NCBI GenBank assembly: GCA_036399815.1
Contig: DASWMK010000285.1
Coordinates: 1 to 40,067 of the forward strand
Source of the DNA: Acidimicrobiales bacterium
Lineage (GTDB): Bacteria > Actinomycetota > Acidimicrobiia > Acidimicrobiales > DASWMK01
DNA length: 40,067 nt
Direction: 5' to 3'
The position numbers were made by a program, and so were the translations under genes. Shown here piece by piece: positions 5,279-18,981 of this stretch. The notes under the pieces are model-generated. The model was not told the DNA's origin. It ran no database searches and was given only the letters and a program-made list of their open reading frames with translations. How positions within the stretch are numbered: the first letter of the stretch is position 1; each line of letters opens with the position of its first letter.

Positions 5279-5284
5279 AGGCTA
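5279..5284 (-). promoter_or_regulatory. -10 element of ilvD overlapping a stop codon
   Basis: On the minus strand this reads TAGCCT and ends 7 nt before the ilvD ATG. Its first three bases are the TAG stop of the upstream ArsR-like gene. No convincing -35 is visible. Confidence 0.45.
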
Positions 5285-5821
5285 GGGCCGGCGGTGGACG
5301 CCGAGCAGCAGGCCGAGGGGCTCGCCGTCCGGGTCGGGCGGCCGCTCGGCGAACTCGTGCACGACGTCGAACACCCGCTCGCGCAGCTCGGCCAGGTGCT
5401 CGGCGTTCAGGCGGAGGCCCAACCGGGTCAGGCCCCTCGACGCGCCGGGGCCGGCCTGGAACACCTCCTCCCGGTAGGCGTCGATCATGGCCAGCTCGCC
5501 GGCGAAGGACTCGTCGGGCGGGAAGTGCTCGACCGACAGCCGCCAGGACTTCCCCGTCGACCGGTAGGGCTTCTCCCGTGCCCCCCTGGCGCCGGTCCGC
5601 ACCGCCTCGACCCGCAGGAAGCCGGTGTCGACGAGCGTGCGCACGTGGTGGAGGACGGTCGCCGGGTCCCGCCCGAGCCGCTCGGCCAGCTCCTTGTTCG
5701 TGAGCGACTCGTCCTGGCAGAGGCGCAGGATGCGGAGCCGCAGCGGATGGGCCATGGCCCGCAGCTCCGCGGTGGTGGCCGGGGTGCGGCCCGGCGGCCC
5801 GACCGGCAGGGGGAGTGACAT
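5282..5821 (-). CDS. ArsR-like winged-helix transcriptional regulator
   Basis: This 179-aa DNA-binding protein has an N-terminal winged helix-turn-helix. [12 protein letters not shown] (23-34) is the typical ArsR-type first helix, [20 protein letters not shown] (40-59) is the HTH, and a basic wing follows to about residue 90. The C-terminal ~90 residues are a helical domain without metal-binding cysteines, so this is not a classical arsenic sensor. The ATG at 5821 was chosen because TACACT lies 8 nt upstream. A start 33 nt further upstream (GTG at 5854) would overlap this promoter and the operator. It is divergent from an MFS exporter with a perfect inverted repeat between them, which suggests that it represses the exporter and itself. 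The ligand is unknown. Confidence 0.85.
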
Positions 5822-5829
5822 CGGTCGCC

Positions 5830-5835
5830 AGTGTA
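5830..5835 (-). promoter_or_regulatory. -10 element of the ArsR-like gene
   Basis: Reads TACACT on the minus strand, ending 8 nt before the ATG at 5821. It lies directly against the left arm of the inverted repeat at 5836, so a bound repressor should block it. Confidence 0.45.
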
Positions 5836-5859
5836 AGTGATTGACAACTCCCAATCACT
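5836..5859. promoter_or_regulatory. Operator: perfect 8-bp inverted repeat
   Basis: AGTGATTG (5836-5843) and CAATCACT (5852-5859) are exact reverse complements separated by 8 bp, giving 16-bp centre-to-centre spacing, about one and a half helical turns. The left arm covers the start of the exporter's -35 box and abuts the regulator's -10. AT content is much higher than in the surroundings. The obvious ligand is the ArsR-like regulator encoded alongside. Confidence 0.7.
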
Positions 5860-5869
5860 CACCCAGACT
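5841..5869 (+). promoter_or_regulatory. Promoter of the MFS exporter gene
   Basis: A perfect TTGACA -35 (5841-5846), a 17-bp spacer and CAGACT as the -10 (5864-5869) place the transcription start at or next to the GTG at 5877. This is the best sigma-70-type promoter in the window. Confidence 0.6.
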
Positions 5870-5876
5870 GGCCGCC

Positions 5877-7127
5877 GTGACCTCGCTCGGCCCCGACTAT
5901 CGCCGGTTCTGGACGGCGTCGGCACTGTCGAACCTCGCGGACGGGGTCTTCCAGGTCGCCCTCCCCCTGCTCGCCGTCCGCCTCACCCACTCGCCGGCGC
6001 TCATCGCCGGCGTGGCCTTCGCCAACCGGCTGCCCTGGCTGCTGTTCGCCCTCCAGGCCGGCGCCCTGGCCGACCGCCTCGACCGGCGGCGGACGATGTT
6101 CAACGTCGACCTCGTCCGCGTCGTGCTGATCGGCGGGCTCGCCGCGCTCACGGCCGCCGGCGCCGAGCACCTGTGGGCCCTCTACGCCGTCGCCCTCGCC
6201 CTCGGGGTGGGCGAGACCCTGTTCGACACGGCCGCCCAGTCGGTCATGCCGAGCGTCGTCGACCGCGACCAGCTGAGCAGGGCGAACGGCCGGCTCTACG
6301 CCGTCGAGCTGACCATGAACCAGTTCGTCGGCCCGCCCCTCGGCGGCGTGCTGGCCGCGGCCGCGGTCGCCCTCGCCTTCGCCACCAGCGCGTCGGCCTA
6401 CCTGCTCGCCGCCGTCGCGCTCGCCCTCGTCTCCGGCTCGTTCAAGCCAGTGCGGACCGGCCCGCGCACCACCCTGCGCACCGACATCGCCGAGGGGCTG
6501 CGCTACCTGTTCGGCCACCGCCTGCTGCGGACCCTCGCCATCATGGTCGGGGTCATGAACCTGGCCAGCACGGCCACGTTCTCGGTCTTCCCGCTGTTCG
6601 CCATCGAGCCGGGGCCGATGGGCCTGTCCGAGCTGGGCTTCGGCGTGATCCTCACGGCCACGGCCGCCGGCAGCCTGCTCGGCTCGCTGTGCACGGCCCG
6701 CCTGGAGCGGGCCATGGGCCGCCACCGGCTCCTCATGCTCACGATCGTGCTGAGCGGGCCGACCCTCGCCCTGACGGCGACGGCCAACGTGCCCCTCGTC
6801 CTGCTCGGCGGCGTGCTGATGGGCTTCGGGGTCGTGATGTGGAACGTGGTGACCGTGTCGCTGCGCCAGCGGGTCGCCCCCGACCACCTCCTCGGCCGGG
6901 TGAACGCCGGCTACCGGCTGCTGGCCTGGGGGACGATGCCGGTCGGCGCCTTCCTCGGCGGCCTCCTCGGCGAGCTCGTCGGCCTGCGGGCCACGTTCGT
7001 GATCGCCGGCGGGGGGTGCGCCCTGCTGCTCTTCCTGAAGCCGTTCGTCACCGACGAGGCCATGGAGGCGGCCGAGCGGGAGGCCGAGGAGCGGGCGGCG
7101 TCCGAGCCGGCGCCGGCCGCCCCCTAG
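5877..7127 (+). CDS. MFS transporter (DHA3/EntS-like exporter)
   Basis: This is a 416-aa, 12-helix major facilitator protein of the MFS_3 type, which includes drug and siderophore exporters driven by the proton gradient. The N-terminus (LGPDYRRFWTASALSNLADG) is typical, and the loop between helices 2 and 3 is ADRLDRRR. The start is set at GTG 5877. The alternative TTG at 5841 is the -35 box of the gene's own promoter and lies inside the operator, and codons before 5877 add only a non-conserved tail. The gene is divergent from, and probably repressed by, the ArsR-like protein. The cargo is unknown. The TAG stop doubles as a possible -10 for the MATE gene. Confidence 0.9.
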   Translation: MTSLGPDYRRFWTASALSNLADGVFQVALPLLAVRLTHSPALIAGVAFANRLPWLLFALQAGALADRLDRRRTMFNVDLVRVVLIGGLAALTAAGAEHLWALYAVALALGVGETLFDTAAQSVMPSVVDRDQLSRANGRLYAVELTMNQFVGPPLGGVLAAAAVALAFATSASAYLLAAVALALVSGSFKPVRTGPRTTLRTDIAEGLRYLFGHRLLRTLAIMVGVMNLASTATFSVFPLFAIEPGPMGLSELGFGVILTATAAGSLLGSLCTARLERAMGRHRLLMLTIVLSGPTLALTATANVPLVLLGGVLMGFGVVMWNVVTVSLRQRVAPDHLLGRVNAGYRLLAWGTMPVGAFLGGLLGELVGLRATFVIAGGGCALLLFLKPFVTDEAMEAAEREAEERAASEPAPAAP

Positions 7128-7130
7128 CCT
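7125..7130 (+). promoter_or_regulatory. Possible -10 of the MATE gene, overlapping MFS stop codon
   Basis: TAGCCT begins at the MFS stop codon. It ends 6 nt before an ATC triplet that lies where the MATE start codon would be expected. The hexamer is identical to the ilvD -10. Confidence 0.35.
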
Positions 7131-7181
7131 CCGGCCATCCTCCGCCGCTCGCCCCACGACCGGGAGATCCTCCGCCTCGGC

Positions 7182-8456
7182 GTGCCCGCGCTCGGCGCGC
7201 TCGTGGCCGAGCCGCTCTACGTGCTGGCCGACACGGCCGTCGTCGGCCACCTCGGCACGCCGGAGCTCGGCGGCCTGGCCGTCGCCACCAGCGTCATCCT
7301 CACCGGCTACGCGGTGTTCATCTTCCTGGCCTACGGGACGACGGCGGCCGTCTCCCGCCTGCTCGGGGCCGGCGACGAGCGGGCCGCCGCCGGCCAGGCC
7401 GTGCAGTCGCTGTGGCTGGCGGCCGGCATCGGGGCCGTGCTGGCGGCGGCCGGCTTCGTCGCCGCGCCCGCCCTGGTCGACGCGCTGGGCGCCGACGGCG
7501 CCGTCCGCGGCCACGCCCTGCTCTACCTGCGGGTCAGCCTCCCCGGCGTGCCCGCCCTCCTGCTGACCCTGGCCGGCGTCGGCTACCTGCGCGGCCTCCA
7601 GGACACCCGCACCCCGCTCGCCGTGGCCGCGGCGTCGGCGGCCGGGAACCTCGTCCTCGAGCTGGTGCTGATCTACGGGCTCGGCTACGGCATCGGGGCG
7701 TCGGCGCTGGCCACGGTCGTGGCCCAGTGGGGCGCGGCGGCCGTCTACGTGGTGCGCATCGCCGCCGCCGTCCGGCGCCTCGACGTGGGCCTCCGCCCCG
7801 ACGGGCGGGCCATCGCCCGCCTGGCCGCCGTGGGCGGGGCGCTCCTCGTCCGCACCGCCGCGCTGCGGGCCTCCCTCACGGTGGCGACCGCGGTCGCCAC
7901 CCGCCTCGGGCCCACCGACGTGGCGGCCCACGCCATCGCCTTCGAGCTGTGGAACCTGCTCGCCCTGGTCCTCGACGCCGTCGCCATCGCCGGCCAGGCC
8001 ATCACCGGGCGGCTGCTCGGCGCCGGCGCCGTCGCCGAGGCGAGGGCCGCCGGCCGGCGGATGATCGAGTGGGGGGTGATGTCGGGGGTGGTGCTCGGCG
8101 CCGCCGTCGTCGCCCTCCGCCCGCTGCTGCCCGGCGTGTTCACCGACGACCCGGCCGTCACCGCCCTGGCCGGGTTCCTGCTGTGGTGGGTGGCGGCCAT
8201 GCAGCCGGTCAACGGGGTGGTGTTCGTGCTCGACGGCATCCTCATCGGCGCCGGCGACCTCCGCTTCCTCGCCGTCGCCATGCTCGGCGCCGCCGCCCTC
8301 TTCGTCCCGGCCGCGCTCGCCGTCGCCACGGCCGGCGCCGGCATCGGCTGGCTGTGGGCCGCGCTCGGGCTGCTCATGCTGGCCCGCCTGGCCGTGCTCG
8401 GCGCCCGCTTCGCCACCCCGGCGTGGTCGGTGCCCGGCGCCGTCCGGGCCGCCTGA
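7182..8456 (+). CDS. MATE-family multidrug exporter (DinF-like), start codon uncertain
   Basis: This is a 12-helix cation-coupled exporter of the MATE family. It shows DTAVVGHLGTPELGGLAVA near the N-terminus and two homologous halves of six helices. The first canonical in-frame start is GTG 7182, giving 424 aa. The preceding codons encode REILRLGVPALG, which looks like the normal conserved beginning of helix 1 in DinF-type proteins, so the protein should begin about 15 codons earlier. In that stretch no ATG, GTG, TTG or CTG exists. The triplet at the expected place (7137) is ATC. The gene follows the MFS exporter and ends one base before the convergent immunity-candidate gene. Substrate is unknown. 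Confidence 0.88.
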   Translation: MPALGALVAEPLYVLADTAVVGHLGTPELGGLAVATSVILTGYAVFIFLAYGTTAAVSRLLGAGDERAAAGQAVQSLWLAAGIGAVLAAAGFVAAPALVDALGADGAVRGHALLYLRVSLPGVPALLLTLAGVGYLRGLQDTRTPLAVAAASAAGNLVLELVLIYGLGYGIGASALATVVAQWGAAAVYVVRIAAAVRRLDVGLRPDGRAIARLAAVGGALLVRTAALRASLTVATAVATRLGPTDVAAHAIAFELWNLLALVLDAVAIAGQAITGRLLGAGAVAEARAAGRRMIEWGVMSGVVLGAAVVALRPLLPGVFTDDPAVTALAGFLLWWVAAMQPVNGVVFVLDGILIGAGDLRFLAVAMLGAAALFVPAALAVATAGAGIGWLWAALGLLMLARLAVLGARFATPAWSVPGAVRAA

Positions 8457-9150: not shown

Positions 9151-9490
9151 TCACTTGGGCGTCTTGCCGTAGTAGAGCCAGCCGAGGCCGGCGTAGAGCG
9201 ACGAGAACTCCTCGATCGACATCCGCCTGGTCGTGTAGATCGTGTGGTGGCTGAGCGGCGCAGGGCCACCGTAGTCGGCGCCGTCCGCGACGACGGCGAG
9301 CCCGGGGGGCACCCGCGACCCGCCGGGCAGCCACCACGCGTGGGAGTTCTTCCAGAACACGGCCAGGTCCTCGAACTTGGCGAACGTGGAGGCGCCGTAG
9401 TGCTGGCCGGTCTCCTCGTTCTTCTGGCCGGGGCAGATCTGCCCGTCCTGGTCGGGCTTCACGTCCGTGCCCGGGCGCGGCGGCCTCGGG
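9151..9490 (-). other. C-terminal toxin-like domain of the RHS protein (Tse2-like ADP-ribosyltransferase fold candidate)
   Basis: The last ~110 residues lie beyond the conserved core, where RHS proteins carry their variable toxin. The pattern LPGGSRVPPGLAVVADG, then HHTIYTTRRMSIEEF (His3245, His3246), then a final LGWLYYGK resembles what I recall of Tse2-like ADP-ribosyltransferase-fold toxins: Leu-Pro-x-Gly-x-x-x-Pro-x-Gly-Leu, a His-Tyr/Thr strand, and a Met-Ser/Thr-x-x-Glu-Phe helix. This was matched by memory, not by a profile search. A YD-protein tail without toxicity remains possible. Confidence 0.42.
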
Positions 9491-12400
9491 CGGGTCGCGT
9501 TGCCGCCGGCGTACAGCGTCGTCGGCGTGACGCCGCCTCCACCGCCGTCGCTGTCGTCCGGCGCCGGCTCGGGGCAGTCGTCGTTGCCGTCGGGCGGCGG
9601 CGGGATGGGCGGGACGACCGGGTCGGGCGCGGGGCCGGGACCGGGGCCGGGGTTGGGGTTCGGCGCCGGGCCGGGACCGGGCGCGGGCCCGGGGCCGGGG
9701 CCGGGGTTGGGCCCTGGGCCGGGGTTCGGCCCCGGTCTCGGTCCTGGACCGGGCGCGGGTGCGGGCGCCGGCGCCGGTGCCGGCTCCGGCTCGGGCGCCG
9801 GCGGGGCGTCCGGGTCGGTGTCGGGCGGTGCGGGCGCCGGGCAGTAGACGGCGCAGAGGATGGCCAGCGCGGCCGCGACCGCGAGCAGCAGCGCCCGGAC
9901 CCGGTAGCCGGTGTAGGCGGCCGCCGGCGCCGTCCGCACCGTCGTGTTCTGCGTCACCAGCGAGTACTCGGCGACGAACATGCCGCTCGGGTCGGTCCAC
10001 GTCGTCGGGTTGCCGGCGACGTAGCCGTACGGGTTGTAGCCGGCCACGCCGGGGGCGCCGGGCCGCACCGGGTCGACCGAGAGGAACCGGCCCGTGCCCG
10101 TCTCCAGGTCGCGGGCGCCGAGGTGGACGCGACCGCCCTCCTGGAGCCCGCCGGCGAAGCCGAGGGCCGGCGCCGTCCCCGTCGACGTGCGGACCGAGCC
10201 GAACGGCGAGTACGACCGCCGCCCGGCGACGGCGCCGCTGCCGTCGGTGACGGCCCTGACCGAGCCGACGGCGTCGGTCAGCAGGGTCGCCGTCTGGGAG
10301 CCGGTGACCGCCGCCACCGGGCCGGACGGCCCGTGGACGAAGGCCGCCGACCCCTCGGACAGCAGCGCCGGGGTGTCGGCCAGGCGGTCCCACACCAGCG
10401 CGTCGCCGCCGTCGGCCACCCGCACCCCGTCGCCGTCGCTGGCGTAGGTGGTGGTGCCCGTCGGCGCGGCGACGCGGGTGAGGTCGCCCCGCCAGTCCCA
10501 CGTGTAGGTGCTCGACCCGTCGGACGTGAGGTTGCCGGCCCCGTCGTAGGTCCTGGCCGTCCCGGCCACGTCGACGAGCTGGGACGCGGCGTCGTAGCCG
10601 TAGGTCACGGTCGGCGTGCCGGTCAGGGTCGACCTCGTCCGGTTCCCGGCGGCGTCGTAGCCGTAGGTGGCGGTGGTCCCGCCGGGGAACGTGACGGCCG
10701 TCAGCCGGTCGGCGGCGTCGATCGTGTAGCTCTCGGTGCCGGCGCTCGAGGTGACCGCCGTCCGGTTGCCCTCGGCGTCGAGGGTGTACTGGAAGAAGTC
10801 GAGGACGGTCGTCCCCCGCCGGTGCTCGACCCTGGTGAGCCGGCCGGCCACGTCGTAGGACCGGGAGGTCGCCACCCCGTTGGAGTGGCTCTCGGTGAGG
10901 ACCCGCCCGTCGCCGTCGTAGGTGTAGGAGGAGGTCGCCCCGTTCCAGGCGGCGACCGTGCGGACCCGGTCGGCGGCGTCGTAGCCGTAGTTCACGGTGC
11001 CGGACGGCTGGCGCATCCACTCGCGCCGGCCGGCGGCGTCGTAGCCGTAGGCGACGGTGCCGCCGGGGGCGGCCACCTCGGTGACGCGCCCGACCTCGTC
11101 GTACCCGAACGTCGTCGTGCCGGTGCCGTCGGTCATCGACGTGCGCCGGCCGAGCTCGTCATAGGTCGCCGTGACCGAGCCGAACGGCGACGACTCGCCG
11201 ATCGGGTTGCCGGCGGCGTCGTAGGTGAACGTGGTCGTGATCCCCCGCCCGTCGGTGGCCGTGGCCAGCCGGCCGGCGAGGTCGTGGCTCCAGCGCCGCG
11301 TCCGGCCCACCGGGTCGCGCTCCTCGACGGGCGCGCCGAGCGGGCCGTACGTGGTCGTCCAGGACTGGCCGTTGGCGTCGGTCAGGCGGGTCCGCTGGCC
11401 GGCCAGGTCGTAGCCGAAGCGCACGGCGTGGCCGAGCGGGTCGGTGACCGAGGCGATCCGGCCGACGGGGTCGTAGGCGTAGTCGGTGTCCTGGCCGCGG
11501 GCGTCGGTGACGGTCACGGTCCGGCCGGCGGCGTCGTAGGACGTCGCCGAGCGGTTCCCGAGCTCGTCGGTGACGGCGGTGAGCAGGTTCCGGGGGTCGT
11601 AGGCGTAGGTGGTGGTGACCCCGGCCGCCGACGTCGCCGACGTGACCCGCCCGGCCGCGTCGTAGGCCTGGGTCCGCTCCTGGCCGAGCCCGTCGGCCAC
11701 GCCGACGATCCGCCCGGCCGCGTCGTAGCGGTAGGTGGTCGTGTGGCCGAGCGGGTCGGTGACCGTGGAGAGCCGGCCGGCGGCGTCGTAGGCCCGCGTC
11801 GTCGACCCGCCGTCGGCCGCGACGGTCTCGACCAGGCGCCCGGCGGCGTCGTACGCCGACCGCGTGACGCTGCCGTCGGCGGCGGTGAGCGCCGTGACCC
11901 GCCCGGCCGGGTCGTGGGCGTAGCCGGTCGTGGCGCCGCCCGGGTCGGTCACCGAGGTGACGAGCCCGCGCCGGTCGTAGCCGTAGGCCGTCGTGCGGCC
12001 CAGCGGGTCGGTGGCCGCGAGGAGCAGCCCCGCGGCGTCGTACTCCCACGACGACACCCCGCCGCCCGCGTCCGTGGACGAGGCCTGGCGCCCGGCGGCG
12101 TCGTAGGTCCAGGTGGTGGTGCGGCCGACGGCGTCGGTCATCGACACCAGCCGGCCGGCGCCGTCGTAGGCGTAGGTCGTCTCCCGGCCGTCGGCGGCCG
12201 TGGCGCCGACGAGGTTGCCGTTGCCGTCGTAGGCGTAGGTCGTCACCTCGGCGAGCGGGTCGGTGTACCGCACGAGGCGGCCGGCGCCGTCGTAGCCGAA
12301 CTTCGAGGCGTGCCCGGCCTGGTCGGTCTGCTCGAGGAGCCGGCCGAACTGGTCGTACGTGAACGCGACGCCGTGGCCCAGCGCGTCGGTGACGGAGAGC

Positions 12401-15400
12401 AGGTTGCCGGCCTCGTCCCACGTGCTCGACGTGACGCCGCCGGTCGGGTCGGTCTCGGTGAGGACCCGGCCGAGCGGGTCGTAGGTGTAGCGGGTCGTGC
12501 CGCCGAGCGGGTCGCGCTCGGAGAGCACGCGGCCGGCGGCGTCGAAGGTCCACGTCGTCGTCCGGCCGGTCCGGTCGGTGGCGCTCGTCCGGTTGCCGCG
12601 GTCGTCGTAGCCGTACGTCTCGGCGTGGCCGTCGGCGTCGGTGATCGACGCCAGGGTGCCGTCGTCGTTCCAGCGGTAGCGGGTGACGTTGCCGGCCGGG
12701 TCGGTCCAGGTGAGGATCTCGCCGAAGGCGGAGTAGGTGATCCTCGTCGTGCGACCCTCGGCGTCGCTGACGCTCGTCAGGTTCCCGCTGCCGTCGTAGG
12801 TGCCCCGCGACGTGTGGCCGGCGGGGTCGGTGCGCGATGTCACCCGGTCCTCGTCGTCCCAGGTCCAGGTCGTGGTGTCGACCACGCCGTCGTGGGCCTG
12901 CTCCTGGCGGACCGGGTTGCCGCGGTCGTCGAAGGTGGTGATCGTCGTGAGCCGGGACTCGGCGTCGGTGACGACCTCCTGGCGGCCGGCGACGTCGACG
13001 GCGACGGCGGTGCGGTTGCCCTCCCCGTCCACGACGGCGGCGAGCCGGCCGTCGTCGTCGTACTCGAGCGTGCGGTAGGGCCGCCCGCCGGCGTCGATGC
13101 TCGTCAGCAGGTGGCCCGGCGCGTACCCGAAGGTGGCCGGGTCGCCGTTCTGGTCGACGACCCGCACGAGGTCGCCGGCCGCGTCGTAGGTGTAGCCGAC
13201 GGTGCTGCCGTCGGGCCCCTCGACGGTCGTGATGCGGCCCTGGGCGTCGCGGATGAAGCGGACCGACGGCCCCGCGGACGACACGATGCCGGCGTCGGTG
13301 AACGTCGTCGTCGTGCCGGCCCGGTCGAGGGCCCGCAGCAGGCCGTCGCCCATGTCGAGCAGGTACTCGGTGCCGAAGCGGTCGGTGAGCACGAACCGGG
13401 TCGGGTCGTACAGGCCGTCGGTGCCGAAGAAGCCGCCGTAGAGGTTGCCGTCGCCGCTGAACCACAGCGAGCCGTCGGCCGCCTCCAGGGTCGACGTCGT
13501 GCCCGGGCGGCCGGTGAACTCCGCCTGGGTGAGGCCGGCGAGGAACGTCGAGCCCCTGGCCGGCGTGAGGTCGAAGACCTCGTTGCGGCCGTCGGGCCAG
13601 GTGACGCTCACGTAGTGGGGCCGGTCGCTGCTGAAGCACAGCGGGACGAAGATGAGCCCGCCGCCGCACTGGCGCATCGACCACCCGCCCTGCCCGAGCG
13701 GGCCGTTGGTCGCCACCCGGAACGAGGCGACCGACAGGGTCCAGCCGGCGCCGAAGTCGCCGACGGCGGTGTCGAAGGAGTCGTAGGTGCGCAGCACCCG
13801 GAGGGGCAGGCCGGCGATGGCGACGGCCATGTCCTCGAACGTGGTCGTGTAGCGGCCGAGCTTGAGCTGGCCGTCGACCACGAACGGCGAGACGGTGACG
13901 GAGATGCCGCCGTTGGACGAGGCCGACTCGACGACGAGCTCCCAGCCGCCGTTGGCCAGCACCGTCGGGTCGACGGTGGCGGCCACGTCGGGGCCGGTGC
14001 CCGAGGCCAGCTCGCGCACGTCGTCGGTGCCGGTGCGCCGGACGCCGACGGTCCACGAGACGACGGTGGCGCCGGCCGGCGGGGTCAGGGTGGCGGCCAC
14101 CGGGGTCGGGGCCGAGAGGATGGTGCCGGCCGGCGGCTCGAGGCCGCCGACGGTCGGGGCCGGCAGGCCGTTCCCGCCGCCGCCACCGCTGCCCCCGCCG
14201 GGGACGCGGAGGGCGACGACGGTGACGTCGGCCTCCTCGTTCGTGTGCGGGTCGTCGGTCAGGATGGGCTGGAGCTCGGCGGACGTGATGCGGCCCTGGG
14301 CGGCCAGGCTGGTGACGCCGGCCGGGAGCGGGTCGGCCACCTTCGCCTCGAACGTGACCGTGAACGAGCTGTCGGCCACGAGCGTGCCCGCCGCCACCTC
14401 GACGACCTCGTCGCCGAGGGCGCCGCCCTGCACGACCGACCCTCGGGTGGTCGTGACCGACCCGATGACGAGGGTCGACGCGGGGTCGAGGGGCACGGCC
14501 AGGTCGACGGCGGTGGCGCCGACGGTGCCGAGGTTCGACACGGCCGCGGTGTAGCGGAGGGTGTCGCCCGGCGAGGGCATGCCGTCGCCGCCGACGTCGC
14601 GGACGAGCGACGCCGAGAGCGTGCCGCTGAGCGCCGGCCGGGGCACGACCACGCGGGTGGTCGTGGGGTCGGCGCTGCCGGCGACGCCCGGGTCGTCGGT
14701 GCGGACGGCGTCGAGCTCGGTGCTGGTGACCGAGCCCTGGACGGACAGGACGGCGACCCCGTCGGGCAGCGGGTCGTCGATCACGACGTCCCACGCCAGC
14801 GTGGCGGCCGCGCCGGCGCCGACGGTGCCGACGTCGACGACGACCTCGTCGCCGGTGCCGGTGCGCACCGAGCCGGTCGAGGTCGTGACCGAGCCGGGGA
14901 CGAGCGCGGTGTTGCGGTCGACCGGCGCGGTCAGGACGACGCCGGTGAGCGGGCTGCCGCCCCGGTTGGTGACGGTCGCCTCGTAGCGGATGGTGTCGCC
15001 CGGCGTGACGAGGCCGTTGCCGTCGCCGTCGGTCCGCAGGACGTCGCGCAGGCTGGCGGCGAGGCCGGGCGGGGTCGACACGACGGTCTCGGCCGTCGCG
15101 CCGGACGGGCCGTAGGCGTTGCCGGCGCCGTCCCGCCACGTCGCCTCGGCCCGGTTGTGGAGGGTCCCACCGGTGGACGAGGCGGGCACGTCGTAGGTGG
15201 CGGTGTGGTCGGAGACCTGGGCCGGGGCCAGCGCGCCGGGCACGCCGGCCACCGGGAGGGTCGTGCCGTCCACCCGGTCGGTGAAGGCCAGCTGCTCGGC
15301 GGGGGTCGAGCCCTGGTTGGCCAGGCGGAGGTCCCACGTGAGGTGGTCGCCGGGCCCGGCCGCGGCCGGGCCGGTGGCCGTGACCCGCACGGCGGGGACG

Positions 15401-18400
15401 TGGCGGGTGGAGCGGTCGGCGACCTGCGGCGAGATCAGCAGGCCGACCCCGCCCGTCGCCCTGGCCACGGCGGTGGCGAACAGGGCCGCGTCGTCGGCGG
15501 CGAGGAGGCGGGCGACGTAGGCGTCGTCGGTCTCGCCGTCGCCCTTCGGGGCCAGGGTCGGCACCTCGTAGGCGCGGTCCTCGGTGGCCGAGGCGCCGGG
15601 CGCCAGCGTGCCGAGGTCGAGCACGGCCGGGTCGCCGGTCGGGGTGGTCATCGTGACCGTGACGTCGTCGACGTCGCCGGACAGGGCGCGGAGCGCGTCG
15701 ACGAAGTCGGCGCTGTAGCGGTACAGGGTCCGCAGCTGGGTGCCGGGCGCCGTCCAGCCGAGCTCGACGTGGGTGCGGATGCCGTCGGTGCGGGCCGGGT
15801 CGAGCAGGAGGTCGACCTGCTCGGGGGTCAGCGCGACGAGGGCCTGGTAGCCCCACGTGGCGAGGCCGCCGGGCTGGACGACGGTGCCGACCACCCGGTC
15901 GCCGGAGGCGGCGTAGGCGACGCCGGTCGCCGCGTTCGGGCGGGTGCTCAGGTCGAGCCCGTCGGCCGTCCCCGACAGGTGCTGCCACGTGCCGTCGGTG
16001 GCCGAGCGGCGCTCGACGGCCAGCGAGAACGAGTCGATCGTGGCCGCCGCCGTGTCCACGTCCTCGGCGCCGAACAGGCCGGGCACGACGAGCAGGGCGC
16101 CGTCGTTCGTCGCCGTCAGGCGGTAGCCGATCGGGTCGCCGGCGAAGACGTCGTCGGCGTCGGCCTCGAGGCCGAGGCCGAGCTCGGGGACGAGCAGCGG
16201 GCCGGCGACGACGCTGTCGGGCCGGCCGCAGGCCGCGCCCCTGATGGTGACGTCGCCGCCGGTCAGGTCGACGCGGTCGCCGACGATGCCGCAGTAGAAG
16301 CGGTTGGAGCTGCCCGACACCTCGATCTCGCCGCGCTCGGCGAACAGCACGCCGAGGAACCGGGAGGTGGAGGCGGCGACGTCGATGGCCCGGTCGCCGG
16401 TGGCGCCGGACAGGAACAGCAGCCCGTCGTGGTACGGGTCGAACGCCGGCCGGGAGCCGTCGACGGTGATGGCGCCGGTGGCGGCGAGCGTGATGCGCCC
16501 GCCGACGGCCGACCCGTTGACCTTCACGGCGCAGGGGACGTAGTAGACGCCGGCCGCGAGGACCTGGTCGACCACGTGCCACAGCCCGCCGGCGCAGCGC
16601 GACGACATGTCGTGGTAGGCGGCGCCCACCTCGCCGGCCACCGGCCCGCCGGGGGCGTAGTCGGCCACGTCGAACCGGAACGGCAGGTCGCCGGCCGGCC
16701 CGCGGACGGCGCGCGGCACGAAGATGTGGCGGTCCTCGATCGAGGCCGTGCCCACGTAGGTGGTCGTGCCCCTGACGGTCTTGGTGGAGCCGAGCACCCG
16801 CAGGTCGCGGTTGGAGTGCACGGCGCCCTCGATGGTCCCGCTCGCGCCCGACCACTCGAAGGTGCGGGGCGCGGTGCGGCTGTTGGCCCACACGGCGACG
16901 GGCTCCTGCACGGCCAGCTGGGCGACGGTCGTGGTGGCCTCGCCGCCGTCGTCGTCGGCCAGGGTCACGGTGACCGTGAACGTGCCGTGCTCGTCGAACA
17001 CGTGGGAGCCGAAGAAGCCGCCCCAGCCCGAGCCGTCGGCGGTGACCGGGACGTCCTCGGCCGCCGTGCCGTCGCCCCAGTCGATGGTGGCGGCGTGGGT
17101 GTCGAGCCAGCCGGCGTCGGTGAACGAGGCGTTCACGACGGTGACGCCGCCGGCGTAGCCGCTGCTGGCCTCGGCCTGCACGGCGGGGTCGACGTTCTCG
17201 ACCGTCACGACGACGCGGTCGCTGTCGGTCAGGCCGAAGCCGTTGGTGACGGTCACCTCGAAGGTGTAGACGCCGTCGTCGGACGCGAGGAACGACGGCC
17301 GCGCGCTCGTGGTCGACGACAGGGTGATCGGCGGGCCGTCGCCGTCGACCAAGGTCCACCGGTAGGCCAGCGGGGCGCTGCCGGCGCCGAGGACGGCGCA
17401 CGTCGTGACCGAGCCCTCGCCGCCTGCGTCCTCGCCGGTGACGGTGAGGCACAGCTCGTGGTCGCCCGGGGGCAGGTCGGGCAGCGGGATGCGGAGGTCG
17501 GCGCCGGCCGGGCCCTCGAAGGGCGGCGGCGGCGTCATGTGGGGCGCGAGGTCGAGCGGGTCGCCCCCGTCGACGGTGAGCGTCGCCCCGGTGAGACGGC
17601 TGCCGATGACCGCCTGGAGGATGTCCGGCAGGTTGCCGACGTCGGGCACGTTCGTGCACGTGCCGCCGGTGCGGGCGGCGATGTCGGCCAGCTTGGAGCC
17701 GACCCGCCCGCCGGTGCACGACGAGCCGGCGCCGATGGCGAAGGCGTGGAACGTGGTCGGGTTGGTGCAGGGCAGGACGGTCGTGACGGCCGCGCCCTCG
17801 GTGGCCTCGCCGTCGGACAGGAACACGGCCAGGCGGTTGTCGGCGATGCTGCCGGCCAGGGTGTCGCACGCCGCCCTCGCCGCCGCCGAGAAGTTGGTCC
17901 CGCCGCCGGCCCGCAGGGCTCGCAGGCCCTCGGTGAGGTCGGGCACGCCGTCGGCGTCGGCGTCGGCGCCCGGCGCGATCAGCACCGAGGTGGCCGACGT
18001 CGGGTTCAGGTCGCGGGCCGAGGCGCCCGACGAGAACGACACCAGGCCGACCTGGGCCACGGTGCCGGCGGCCACGACGTCCTGGTGGAGCTCGAGGGCG
18101 GCCGCGATCTCGCAGTCGATGATCCGGTTCGAGAGCCGGTCGCCGTTCTGGTCGCCGCCGCAGCCGCCGGTGAAGTCGGCGCTGCCCGAGACGTCGACCA
18201 CGTAGACGATGGCCGTGTCGGCGGCCGGCGGGCCCTCCCCGATGGCCGCCTGGGCGGCGATGACCGGCCCGTCGTCGCCCGACGCCAGGCCGTTGATGCC
18301 GGCCGACAGCGCGGTGCCGCCGGGCAGGTTGGCCGTCGCCTCGGTCGGCTCCAGCACGGCCGGGCTCGGGTCGATCGACCCGCTGCCGTCGAGGGTGACG

Positions 18401-18981
18401 GCGCTGCCCTCGGGCACCGCCTGGTCGGCGCCGGCCCTGGCCACCGGGTTGCGGCCGACGGTGGGCGGCGGGGGCTCCTCGGGCGGCGGGGGCGGCGGCT
18501 CGGGCGCGATGCCGCCCCTGAACTCGAAGACGTTGTCGTCGTAGTCGCGGTCGCCGCCGCCGAACAGGTCCTCGAACCCGACGCGGGCCAGGCCCTCGCC
18601 GAGGATCTCGACGGCGGCGTGGGCGAGCCCGTCGGGGTTCCGGTCGGCCGGCCCCATGCGGTACTCGTGGCCCTCGACCCTGATCCCGAAGACCAGCTCG
18701 TCGCCGGACGTGAACGGGCCGAGGGTCACGGTCCTCCCGACGTCCCGGTTCGTCGAGATGAAGACCTCCTGGGGCTCGAGGAGCCACAGCTGCGAGGTCA
18801 GCCCGGCCGATGCCGGCAGGACCTCGACCTCGACCATGTCGCCGGTGGCGTACAGCTGCGCACCGATGACGCGTTCGGCGGCCTGTGCCGGCACCTGCGG
18901 CACGAGCACGGCCACCGCCGCCGCCAACGTGGCCGCGACGACGAGGACGGCGACGCGCGCGCGCCCGAAGGCTTTCGACAT
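9151..18981 (-). CDS. Giant secreted RHS/YD-repeat polymorphic toxin-like protein
   Basis: This 3,276-aa protein begins with a Sec signal peptide (residues ~1-34, ending VPAQAAE). It continues with a vWA domain whose metal site is complete (Asp263-Ser265-Ser267, Thr362, Asp390). Next come PKD-like domains (one WGDGT near 635), a beta-rich region to ~900, DUF11-type repeats near 1306 and 1449, and a Gly linker near 1600. Tandem YD repeats run from ~1925 to 2810, leading to an RHS core ending PTTWTDPSGM (2992-3001), which fits the PxxxxDPxG self-cleavage motif. After it come a TM helix (3030-3046), a Pro/Gly linker and a ~110-aa C-terminal domain. Known RHS proteins enclose a toxin in a YD-repeat cocoon. 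Here surface anchoring and delivery to rivals are inferred. The ATG follows a GGGGGGGAG stretch. Confidence 0.92.
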   Translation of the reverse strand: MSKAFGRARVAVLVVAATLAAAVAVLVPQVPAQAAERVIGAQLYATGDMVEVEVLPASAGLTSQLWLLEPQEVFISTNRDVGRTVTLGPFTSGDELVFGIRVEGHEYRMGPADRNPDGLAHAAVEILGEGLARVGFEDLFGGGDRDYDDNVFEFRGGIAPEPPPPPPEEPPPPTVGRNPVARAGADQAVPEGSAVTLDGSGSIDPSPAVLEPTEATANLPGGTALSAGINGLASGDDGPVIAAQAAIGEGPPAADTAIVYVVDVSGSADFTGGCGGDQNGDRLSNRIIDCEIAAALELHQDVVAAGTVAQVGLVSFSSGASARDLNPTSATSVLIAPGADADADGVPDLTEGLRALRAGGGTNFSAAARAACDTLAGSIADNRLAVFLSDGEATEGAAVTTVLPCTNPTTFHAFAIGAGSSCTGGRVGSKLADIAARTGGTCTNVPDVGNLPDILQAVIGSRLTGATLTVDGGDPLDLAPHMTPPPPFEGPAGADLRIPLPDLPPGDHELCLTVTGEDAGGEGSVTTCAVLGAGSAPLAYRWTLVDGDGPPITLSSTTSARPSFLASDDGVYTFEVTVTNGFGLTDSDRVVVTVENVDPAVQAEASSGYAGGVTVVNASFTDAGWLDTHAATIDWGDGTAAEDVPVTADGSGWGGFFGSHVFDEHGTFTVTVTLADDDGGEATTTVAQLAVQEPVAVWANSRTAPRTFEWSGASGTIEGAVHSNRDLRVLGSTKTVRGTTTYVGTASIEDRHIFVPRAVRGPAGDLPFRFDVADYAPGGPVAGEVGAAYHDMSSRCAGGLWHVVDQVLAAGVYYVPCAVKVNGSAVGGRITLAATGAITVDGSRPAFDPYHDGLLFLSGATGDRAIDVAASTSRFLGVLFAERGEIEVSGSSNRFYCGIVGDRVDLTGGDVTIRGAACGRPDSVVAGPLLVPELGLGLEADADDVFAGDPIGYRLTATNDGALLVVPGLFGAEDVDTAAATIDSFSLAVERRSATDGTWQHLSGTADGLDLSTRPNAATGVAYAASGDRVVGTVVQPGGLATWGYQALVALTPEQVDLLLDPARTDGIRTHVELGWTAPGTQLRTLYRYSADFVDALRALSGDVDDVTVTMTTPTGDPAVLDLGTLAPGASATEDRAYEVPTLAPKGDGETDDAYVARLLAADDAALFATAVARATGGVGLLISPQVADRSTRHVPAVRVTATGPAAAGPGDHLTWDLRLANQGSTPAEQLAFTDRVDGTTLPVAGVPGALAPAQVSDHTATYDVPASSTGGTLHNRAEATWRDGAGNAYGPSGATAETVVSTPPGLAASLRDVLRTDGDGNGLVTPGDTIRYEATVTNRGGSPLTGVVLTAPVDRNTALVPGSVTTSTGSVRTGTGDEVVVDVGTVGAGAAATLAWDVVIDDPLPDGVAVLSVQGSVTSTELDAVRTDDPGVAGSADPTTTRVVVPRPALSGTLSASLVRDVGGDGMPSPGDTLRYTAAVSNLGTVGATAVDLAVPLDPASTLVIGSVTTTRGSVVQGGALGDEVVEVAAGTLVADSSFTVTFEAKVADPLPAGVTSLAAQGRITSAELQPILTDDPHTNEEADVTVVALRVPGGGSGGGGGNGLPAPTVGGLEPPAGTILSAPTPVAATLTPPAGATVVSWTVGVRRTGTDDVRELASGTGPDVAATVDPTVLANGGWELVVESASSNGGISVTVSPFVVDGQLKLGRYTTTFEDMAVAIAGLPLRVLRTYDSFDTAVGDFGAGWTLSVASFRVATNGPLGQGGWSMRQCGGGLIFVPLCFSSDRPHYVSVTWPDGRNEVFDLTPARGSTFLAGLTQAEFTGRPGTTSTLEAADGSLWFSGDGNLYGGFFGTDGLYDPTRFVLTDRFGTEYLLDMGDGLLRALDRAGTTTTFTDAGIVSSAGPSVRFIRDAQGRITTVEGPDGSTVGYTYDAAGDLVRVVDQNGDPATFGYAPGHLLTSIDAGGRPYRTLEYDDDGRLAAVVDGEGNRTAVAVDVAGRQEVVTDAESRLTTITTFDDRGNPVRQEQAHDGVVDTTTWTWDDEDRVTSRTDPAGHTSRGTYDGSGNLTSVSDAEGRTTRITYSAFGEILTWTDPAGNVTRYRWNDDGTLASITDADGHAETYGYDDRGNRTSATDRTGRTTTWTFDAAGRVLSERDPLGGTTRYTYDPLGRVLTETDPTGGVTSSTWDEAGNLLSVTDALGHGVAFTYDQFGRLLEQTDQAGHASKFGYDGAGRLVRYTDPLAEVTTYAYDGNGNLVGATAADGRETTYAYDGAGRLVSMTDAVGRTTTWTYDAAGRQASSTDAGGGVSSWEYDAAGLLLAATDPLGRTTAYGYDRRGLVTSVTDPGGATTGYAHDPAGRVTALTAADGSVTRSAYDAAGRLVETVAADGGSTTRAYDAAGRLSTVTDPLGHTTTYRYDAAGRIVGVADGLGQERTQAYDAAGRVTSATSAAGVTTTYAYDPRNLLTAVTDELGNRSATSYDAAGRTVTVTDARGQDTDYAYDPVGRIASVTDPLGHAVRFGYDLAGQRTRLTDANGQSWTTTYGPLGAPVEERDPVGRTRRWSHDLAGRLATATDGRGITTTFTYDAAGNPIGESSPFGSVTATYDELGRRTSMTDGTGTTTFGYDEVGRVTEVAAPGGTVAYGYDAAGRREWMRQPSGTVNYGYDAADRVRTVAAWNGATSSYTYDGDGRVLTESHSNGVATSRSYDVAGRLTRVEHRRGTTVLDFFQYTLDAEGNRTAVTSSAGTESYTIDAADRLTAVTFPGGTTATYGYDAAGNRTRSTLTGTPTVTYGYDAASQLVDVAGTARTYDGAGNLTSDGSSTYTWDWRGDLTRVAAPTGTTTYASDGDGVRVADGGDALVWDRLADTPALLSEGSAAFVHGPSGPVAAVTGSQTATLLTDAVGSVRAVTDGSGAVAGRRSYSPFGSVRTSTGTAPALGFAGGLQEGGRVHLGARDLETGTGRFLSVDPVRPGAPGVAGYNPYGYVAGNPTTWTDPSGMFVAEYSLVTQNTTVRTAPAAAYTGYRVRALLLAVAAALAILCAVYCPAPAPPDTDPDAPPAPEPEPAPAPAPAPAPGPGPRPGPNPGPGPNPGPGPGPAPGPGPAPNPNPGPGPGPAPDPVVPPIPPPPDGNDDCPEPAPDDSDGGGGGVTPTTLYAGGNATRPRPPRPGTDVKPDQDGQICPGQKNEETGQHYGASTFAKFEDLAVFWKNSHAWWLPGGSRVPPGLAVVADGADYGGPAPLSHHTIYTTRRMSIEEFSSLYAGLGWLYYGKTPK
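9590..9840 (-). repeat. Proline/glycine-rich linker encoded by low-complexity repeats
   Basis: Short units encoding Pro-Gly, Pro-Ala and Pro-Asn dipeptides fill RHS residues ~3048-3130, between the TM helix and the toxin-like domain. On the + strand this is a run of CCGGGG/GGTTGGGG-type words with many G tracts. Such linkers commonly span the cell wall, and the DNA is prone to slippage. Confidence 0.8.
10560..13210 (-). repeat. Tandem YD (RHS) repeats within the giant gene
   Basis: Degenerate units of about 63 bp (21 codons) recur throughout, each with the form G-x-x-x-x-Y-x-Y-D-x-x-G-R-L/V. The reverse complement of Tyr-Asp-Ala-Ala-Gly (gccggcggcgtcgta and variants) is visible again and again on the + strand. 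They encode the beta-strand cage of RHS proteins. Confidence 0.9.

Follow-up and report, generated by a model that had tools for sequence, protein, structure and literature searches.

A MATE-family transporter gene of an Acidimicrobiales bacterium that may be translated from AUC at the 5' end of a leaderless mRNA

A gene for a MATE-family transporter in the 40,067-nt stretch of Acidimicrobiales DNA analysed here (the window) has no ordinary start codon where its coding sequence begins, and carries ATC at that place, behind a −10-like element, TAGCCT. The DNA itself shows the element, how far it stands from the ATC, the lack of an ordinary start and the coding onset, and the arrangement recurs in three other species. 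Our preferred explanation, to which we give a probability of about 0.57 on the basis of sequence comparison, is that the gene is expressed from a leaderless mRNA with AUC as its start codon. The TAGCCT element would drive the gene's own transcription, with the 5' end of the mRNA at A7137 or within a base or two of it; ribosomes would initiate directly on the 5'-terminal AUC, which the ordinary initiator tRNA would decode with a third-position mismatch; and the outcome would be full-length protein at a low level. Leaderless genes and rare near-cognate starts are each known, and their combination would be new.

The window is contig 285 of a draft genome (G000; 287 contigs, 4.16 Mb) that is the sole genome of its family in the comparison. 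Where its sequence relatives are named, they are mostly metagenome assemblies of Acidimicrobiia/Acidimicrobiales. The features relevant to the start of the gene are as follows.

5841–7127, plus strand: MFS transporter gene (open reading frame; Pfam MFS_3, E = 5.5e-40), with TTG at 5841 as the listed, putative start.
7125–7130, plus strand: TAGCCT, a −10-like element whose first three bases double as the MFS stop codon (in-frame TANNNT enrichment; relatives in family f14).
7137–7139, plus strand: ATC, where translation, and the mRNA itself, are proposed to begin (relatives; coding change-point at 7134).
7137–8456, plus strand: MATE-family transporter gene, 439 codons counted from ATC (TIGR00797, PF01554).
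7152–7181, plus strand: codons for PHDREILRLG, the first part of transmembrane helix 1, ahead of the first ordinary start (conservation; structural model).
7182–7184, plus strand: GTG, the first ordinary in-frame start and the rival to ATC; its use would remove residues 1–15.

The MFS stop codon (TAG, 7125–7127) lies 12 nt before ATC, on the same strand and in frame with the MATE gene, and the frame continues from it as TAG (7125) CCT CCG GCC ATC (7137) CTC CGC CGC TCG CCC CAC GAC CGG GAG ATC CTC CGC CTC GGC GTG (7182). The original prediction, that no ordinary start precedes the GTG and that TAGCCT leads to ATC across a gap of 6 nt, is confirmed on both points: not one ATG, GTG, TTG or CTG occurs in frame between 7125 and 7182, and the gap is exactly 6 nt. 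It had also pointed to the same hexamer in front of ilvD; there TAGCCT does lead to ATG, and the gap (GCGGGCG) is 7 nt rather than 6. Pairing with the anti-Shine-Dalgarno sequence ahead of ATC is weak (−1.7 kcal/mol). A scan of positions 6900–7400 with the sigma-70 consensus gave no match, a result that is uninformative because of the base composition of the region. Elsewhere in the window, at 9151–18981 on the minus strand, is an open reading frame of 3276 residues with many YD-type repeats, which we take by eye to encode a Rhs-like surface protein.

The protein is clearly a member of the MATE family. Its frame matches TIGR00797 over the whole profile (positions 1–396 of 396) with 293.5 bits, above the curated cut-off of 147.4, and PF01554 with 148.8 bits (cut-off 24.9). 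An AlphaFold2 model built on a 20-protein alignment has a mean pLDDT of 92.5 and places helix 1 at residues 6–37 counted from ATC. The expectation that the N-terminus upstream of the GTG is conserved held in these 20 aligned proteins: I11 and L14 do not vary among them, and D8 and A15 hardly do. Alignments with solved MATE proteins likewise extend over this N-terminal stretch, for example with 9l7l (starting at residue 9) and 3vvn (starting at residue 3). Where coding begins was located with a home-made codon model that was trained on 368 kb of G000 and is blind to start codons; it puts the onset of the MATE gene at 7134, not at 7182.

TAGCCT is not a rare hexamer in the window, with 2 occurrences against 2.67 expected by chance; we therefore rejected its frequency as evidence, and it is the position of the hexamer that counts. 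In G000 that position is informative. Among 64 in-frame placements of TANNNT 6–8 nt ahead near coding onset (368 kb, 293 genes), the codon behind the box was ATG or GTG in 46, whereas at two out-of-frame offsets with equal gaps ATG, GTG or TTG followed in only 1 of 130 placements. In this genome the box layout thus points out genuine starts. Its most frequent form is TAGCCT, found at 8 of the 47 leaderless-like genes sampled from G000, with the MATE gene among them. As a separate observation, in 5 of these 47 genes, again including the MATE gene, the TAG of an upstream gene forms the first half of the −10 box (window 5279–5284 and 7125–7130; L171, L176 and L184). Between ilvD and the MFS transporter lies a gene (window 5282–5854, minus strand) that we assume by eye to encode a helix-turn-helix regulator; its start is probably an ATG 8 nt behind TACACT rather than the listed TTG at 5854.

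In the samples examined, ATC behind a box near a coding onset is almost confined to the MATE gene. It was found at this one gene of the 293 sampled in G000, and a search for ATC as a general leaderless start in samples of G000, of the three genomes whose MATE genes share the feature (G305, G321 and G135), of other genomes of their family and of four further stretches returned nothing besides the MATE gene except a single weak example (L216) with ATC 12 codons before the coding onset. The same survey gave one TTG (L206) and two CTG (L224 and L241). When genes were ranked by the lack of an ordinary start near their coding onset, the MATE gene headed the list in the samples of G305 and G321, shared the top rank in G135 and was eighth among 260 in G000. 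The seven other top-ranked genes of G000 comprise four with an ordinary start further out, two that look CTG-initiated and one (window 26059) that resembles a false call. The two that apparently start with CTG lie at L185:5348-6250 and L178:18102-18941; we take them to resemble an HtpX-like protease and a metallo-beta-lactamase-fold protein.

Comparison with relatives carries most of the argument. The search of the order covered 397 genomes drawn from a larger group, with matches kept at E ≤ 1e-120; of the 177 loci, 176 had an N-terminal region that could be placed. Leaving out L069 (no N-terminus), L021 (at a contig edge) and 26 loci identical around the start gave a set of 149, the window included; at least three members (L064, L065 and L067) have titles that do not name the order. 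In the zone where the start is expected, 11–32 codons before the equivalent of 7182, an ordinary start is present in 139 of the 149 loci, with a TANNNT box 6–8 nt ahead of it in 49 of the 139. Run as a test of the whole set, the comparison therefore did not bear out the possibility that relatives begin at the GTG equivalent.

The other 10 loci lack ATG, GTG and TTG in the zone, and four of them combine a box with ATC: the window (TAGCCT, gap 6), L080 (from G321, gap 7), L082 (from G135, gap 7) and L086 (from G305, gap 8). The last three are three species of one family, f14, which is not that of the window. In their f14 sisters L042 (identical to L087), L099 and L100, TAGCCT stands 7–8 nt before an ATG, and this codon matches the ATC of L080, L082 and L086; two further f14 loci, L002 and L101, start with GTG. 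Box plus ATC in three species and box plus ATG in their sisters lend support to the proposal of a leaderless gene with a rare start. Across the set, 4 of the 6 ATC, ATT or ATA codons that the ten start-less loci have in the zone stand behind TANNNT (gap 6–8), against none of the 46 such codons in the zone of the remaining 139 loci (Fisher p = 5.5e-5, with related loci not independent). An earlier count that lacked the last 16 loci agrees (ordinary start in 126 of 135; such codons behind a box 4 of 6 against 0 of 41); adding them left the pattern unchanged and made the counter-argument from GTG, discussed below, a little stronger. Thus the window, L080, L082 and L086 share both the absence of an ordinary start in the zone and an odd codon that is kept among relatives.

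The remaining start-less loci differ in layout. L078, L031 and L060 have CTG written as CTGA, overlapped by the TGA of another frame, and L011 has an ATG 39 codons up; L266 shows neither box plus ATC, nor CTGA, nor a far ATG, nor an overlap of ATC with TAG. In L078, GGAGGAG precedes CTGA. In L133 (on one contig of G088 together with L231 and L243), whose zone has no ordinary start, ATC overlaps the TAG that ends a called upstream gene, and a GTG occupies the position of 7182.

The most serious alternative, which we nevertheless consider unlikely, is that translation starts at GTG 7182, ATC being the site of a lost ATG, so that the mRNA would have a 45-nt leader and the protein would lack its first 15 residues. 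Against the AUC reading, each of the four ATC loci has GTG at the position of 7182, and among the 10 loci that lack an ordinary start upstream 6 have one at this position, compared with 35 of the 139 loci that do have one upstream (Fisher p = 0.027). If 7182 were a backup or the true start, both observations would be explained. The PF01554 and TIGR00797 matches moreover begin just behind this GTG, at residue 20 of the frame counted from 7128, but with a third MATE model, NF007690, the match starts at residue 9 of that frame. Likewise, GGGAG lies 16–20 nt before the GTG and could pair with the anti-Shine-Dalgarno at −6.9 kcal/mol, but this is beyond the normal Shine-Dalgarno distance, and the motif is made of the conserved Asp-Arg-Glu codons. 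In the model, a start at 7182 would also cost helix 1 the first 10 of its 32 residues, the coding onset falls at 7134, and, as noted, an ordinary start lies further upstream in nearly all loci of the set.

The codons ahead of the GTG provide a further argument against its use. Between L080 and L082 or L086, the 54 nt after ATC are 80–83% identical (83% at the amino acid level), against 35–36% over the 100 nt upstream. The ATG lineages behave alike, with 80–81% nucleotide and 89% amino acid identity between L042 and L099 or L100. In the comparison of L080 with L082 and L086, third positions account for 5–7 of 9–11 differences before the GTG and for 14–16 of 18–19 downstream, and this weaker bias before the GTG, which counts against the AUC reading, is found in ATC and ATG lineages both. 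Because the N-terminal constraint in the ATC species resembles that of the ATG lineages, these codons look as though they are still translated there.

A leaderless AUC start also has to be weighed against reinitiation, in which ATC would be used by ribosomes that have just finished the MFS gene rather than on a leaderless mRNA. The geometry in the window would suit this, as ATC follows 12 nt behind the start of the MFS stop codon (7125), in the same frame and on the same strand. However, at the f14 ATC loci no called same-strand gene (open reading frames of at least 240 nt) ends close upstream, the nearest ends being ~450–650 nt away, so reinitiation cannot be the common explanation. A relative of the MFS gene was not found at the other MATE loci tested, many of which have just 1.5–2.5 kb of upstream DNA, and TAGCCT is kept in six f14 loci despite the divergence of the surrounding DNA. 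We therefore regard reinitiation as improbable.

Two explanations that treat the ATC as an accident are the least probable, and we rate them equally low. (i) A recent loss of the start codon on the way to inactivation, to which the confinement of ATC behind a box to this one gene of 293 might point, fits poorly with an intact frame, a full-length family match and an ATC common to two f14 species whose proteins are 93% identical. (ii) A misreading of ATG as ATC in the G000 assembly, conceivable for a 287-contig draft that is alone in its family here, is very improbable because relatives also carry ATC at the start place; box plus ATC occurs in three other assemblies, four in all.

The suggestion that an ATG had mutated to ATC fits as history, and does not fit as fresh damage, given the ATC, the intact frame and the constrained N-terminal codons of both G135 and G305. 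In the protein tree the window and f14 stand apart, and grouping the four ATC sequences as one clade is rejected (p-AU = 0.0035, quick trees); a single origin of ATC was rejected accordingly. Clades of the window with all six f14 sequences (p-AU = 0.193) and of the three f14 ATC sequences alone (p-AU = 0.477) are not rejected. The quick tree requires at least 3 changes, and well-supported branches make 2 of them unavoidable. From these results the number of ATC origins is 2–3, and either ATC or ATG may have come first in f14.

If AUC is indeed the start codon, it is likely, if as yet conjectural, that it is tolerated since weak synthesis of the transporter suffices or is preferable. More broadly, and at slightly under even odds in our estimation, the ribosomes of this order may start natural leaderless mRNAs on 5'-terminal AUC, contrary to the restriction to AUG and GUG found in mycobacteria. 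One transporter gene would then have acquired such a start two or more times, perhaps because it is purposely weak and responds to the state of the initiation factors.

A precedent for odd start codons of this kind is infC, the gene for IF3, whose start codon (ATT in Escherichia coli) serves in its autoregulation. In the 11 genomes of the comparison that were searched for it (L244–L255; G000 is L253), infC has ATA at the start place in all 11, and in 9 of them the interval from the upstream stop to the conserved N-terminal motif is free of ATG, GTG and TTG; in G088 there is an additional GTG two codons ahead of the ATA, and in G321 a distant one. A near-cognate start thus appears to be used in the order. 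The MATE gene resembles infC-type starts in the third-position mismatch with which the initiator tRNA would pair and in the retention of the odd codon across species. It differs in that infC encodes IF3, whereas the MATE gene has no known link to that factor.

Weak third-base pairs are excluded by IF3 in vitro, according to Katoh and Suga (2023, PMC10158994), which speaks against the AUC reading. For leaderless initiation, a review (PMC9031893) calls the mechanism of start-codon recognition still unknown. In the leaderless reporters of Mycobacterium smegmatis described by Shell et al. (2015, PMC4633059), only ATG and GTG worked, in all but 547 of 343,242 reads, and ATC served as a putative negative control, a result that likewise counts against an AUC start. 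Among the literature matches listed, most subscription papers being beyond the reach of the search, none described a leaderless mRNA with an AUC or ATC start codon. Should the AUC reading be true, a natural AUC leaderless gene in four species would be a ready test case for the dependence on 5' AUG or GUG described in PMC4633059. Gene finders limited to ATG, GTG and TTG would then clip about one-third of helix 1 from such a transporter.

Set beside known leaderless systems, the MATE gene has the −10 element expected 6–8 nt before the start codon (TAGCCT, gap 6). Accounts of mycobacterial leaderless mRNAs (PMC4633059, PMC9031893) and of the −10-motif genes of Deinococcus-Thermus (PMC12340547), where in Deinococcus the motif lies 6–7 bp before the open reading frame, describe the same combination of a −10 element directly before the start, no Shine-Dalgarno sequence and a start at the 5' end of the mRNA, the last being what we propose here. 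By those accounts mycobacterial leaderless starts are ATG and GTG and ATC is the negative control, whereas the window's gene has ATC at 7137; this departure from the mycobacterial rule lowers the claim that the known leaderless route operates unchanged. Compared with known MATE efflux transporters (TIGR00797, PF01554), the gene is alike in its full-length family match and all-helical model, and its start codon is the only odd feature.
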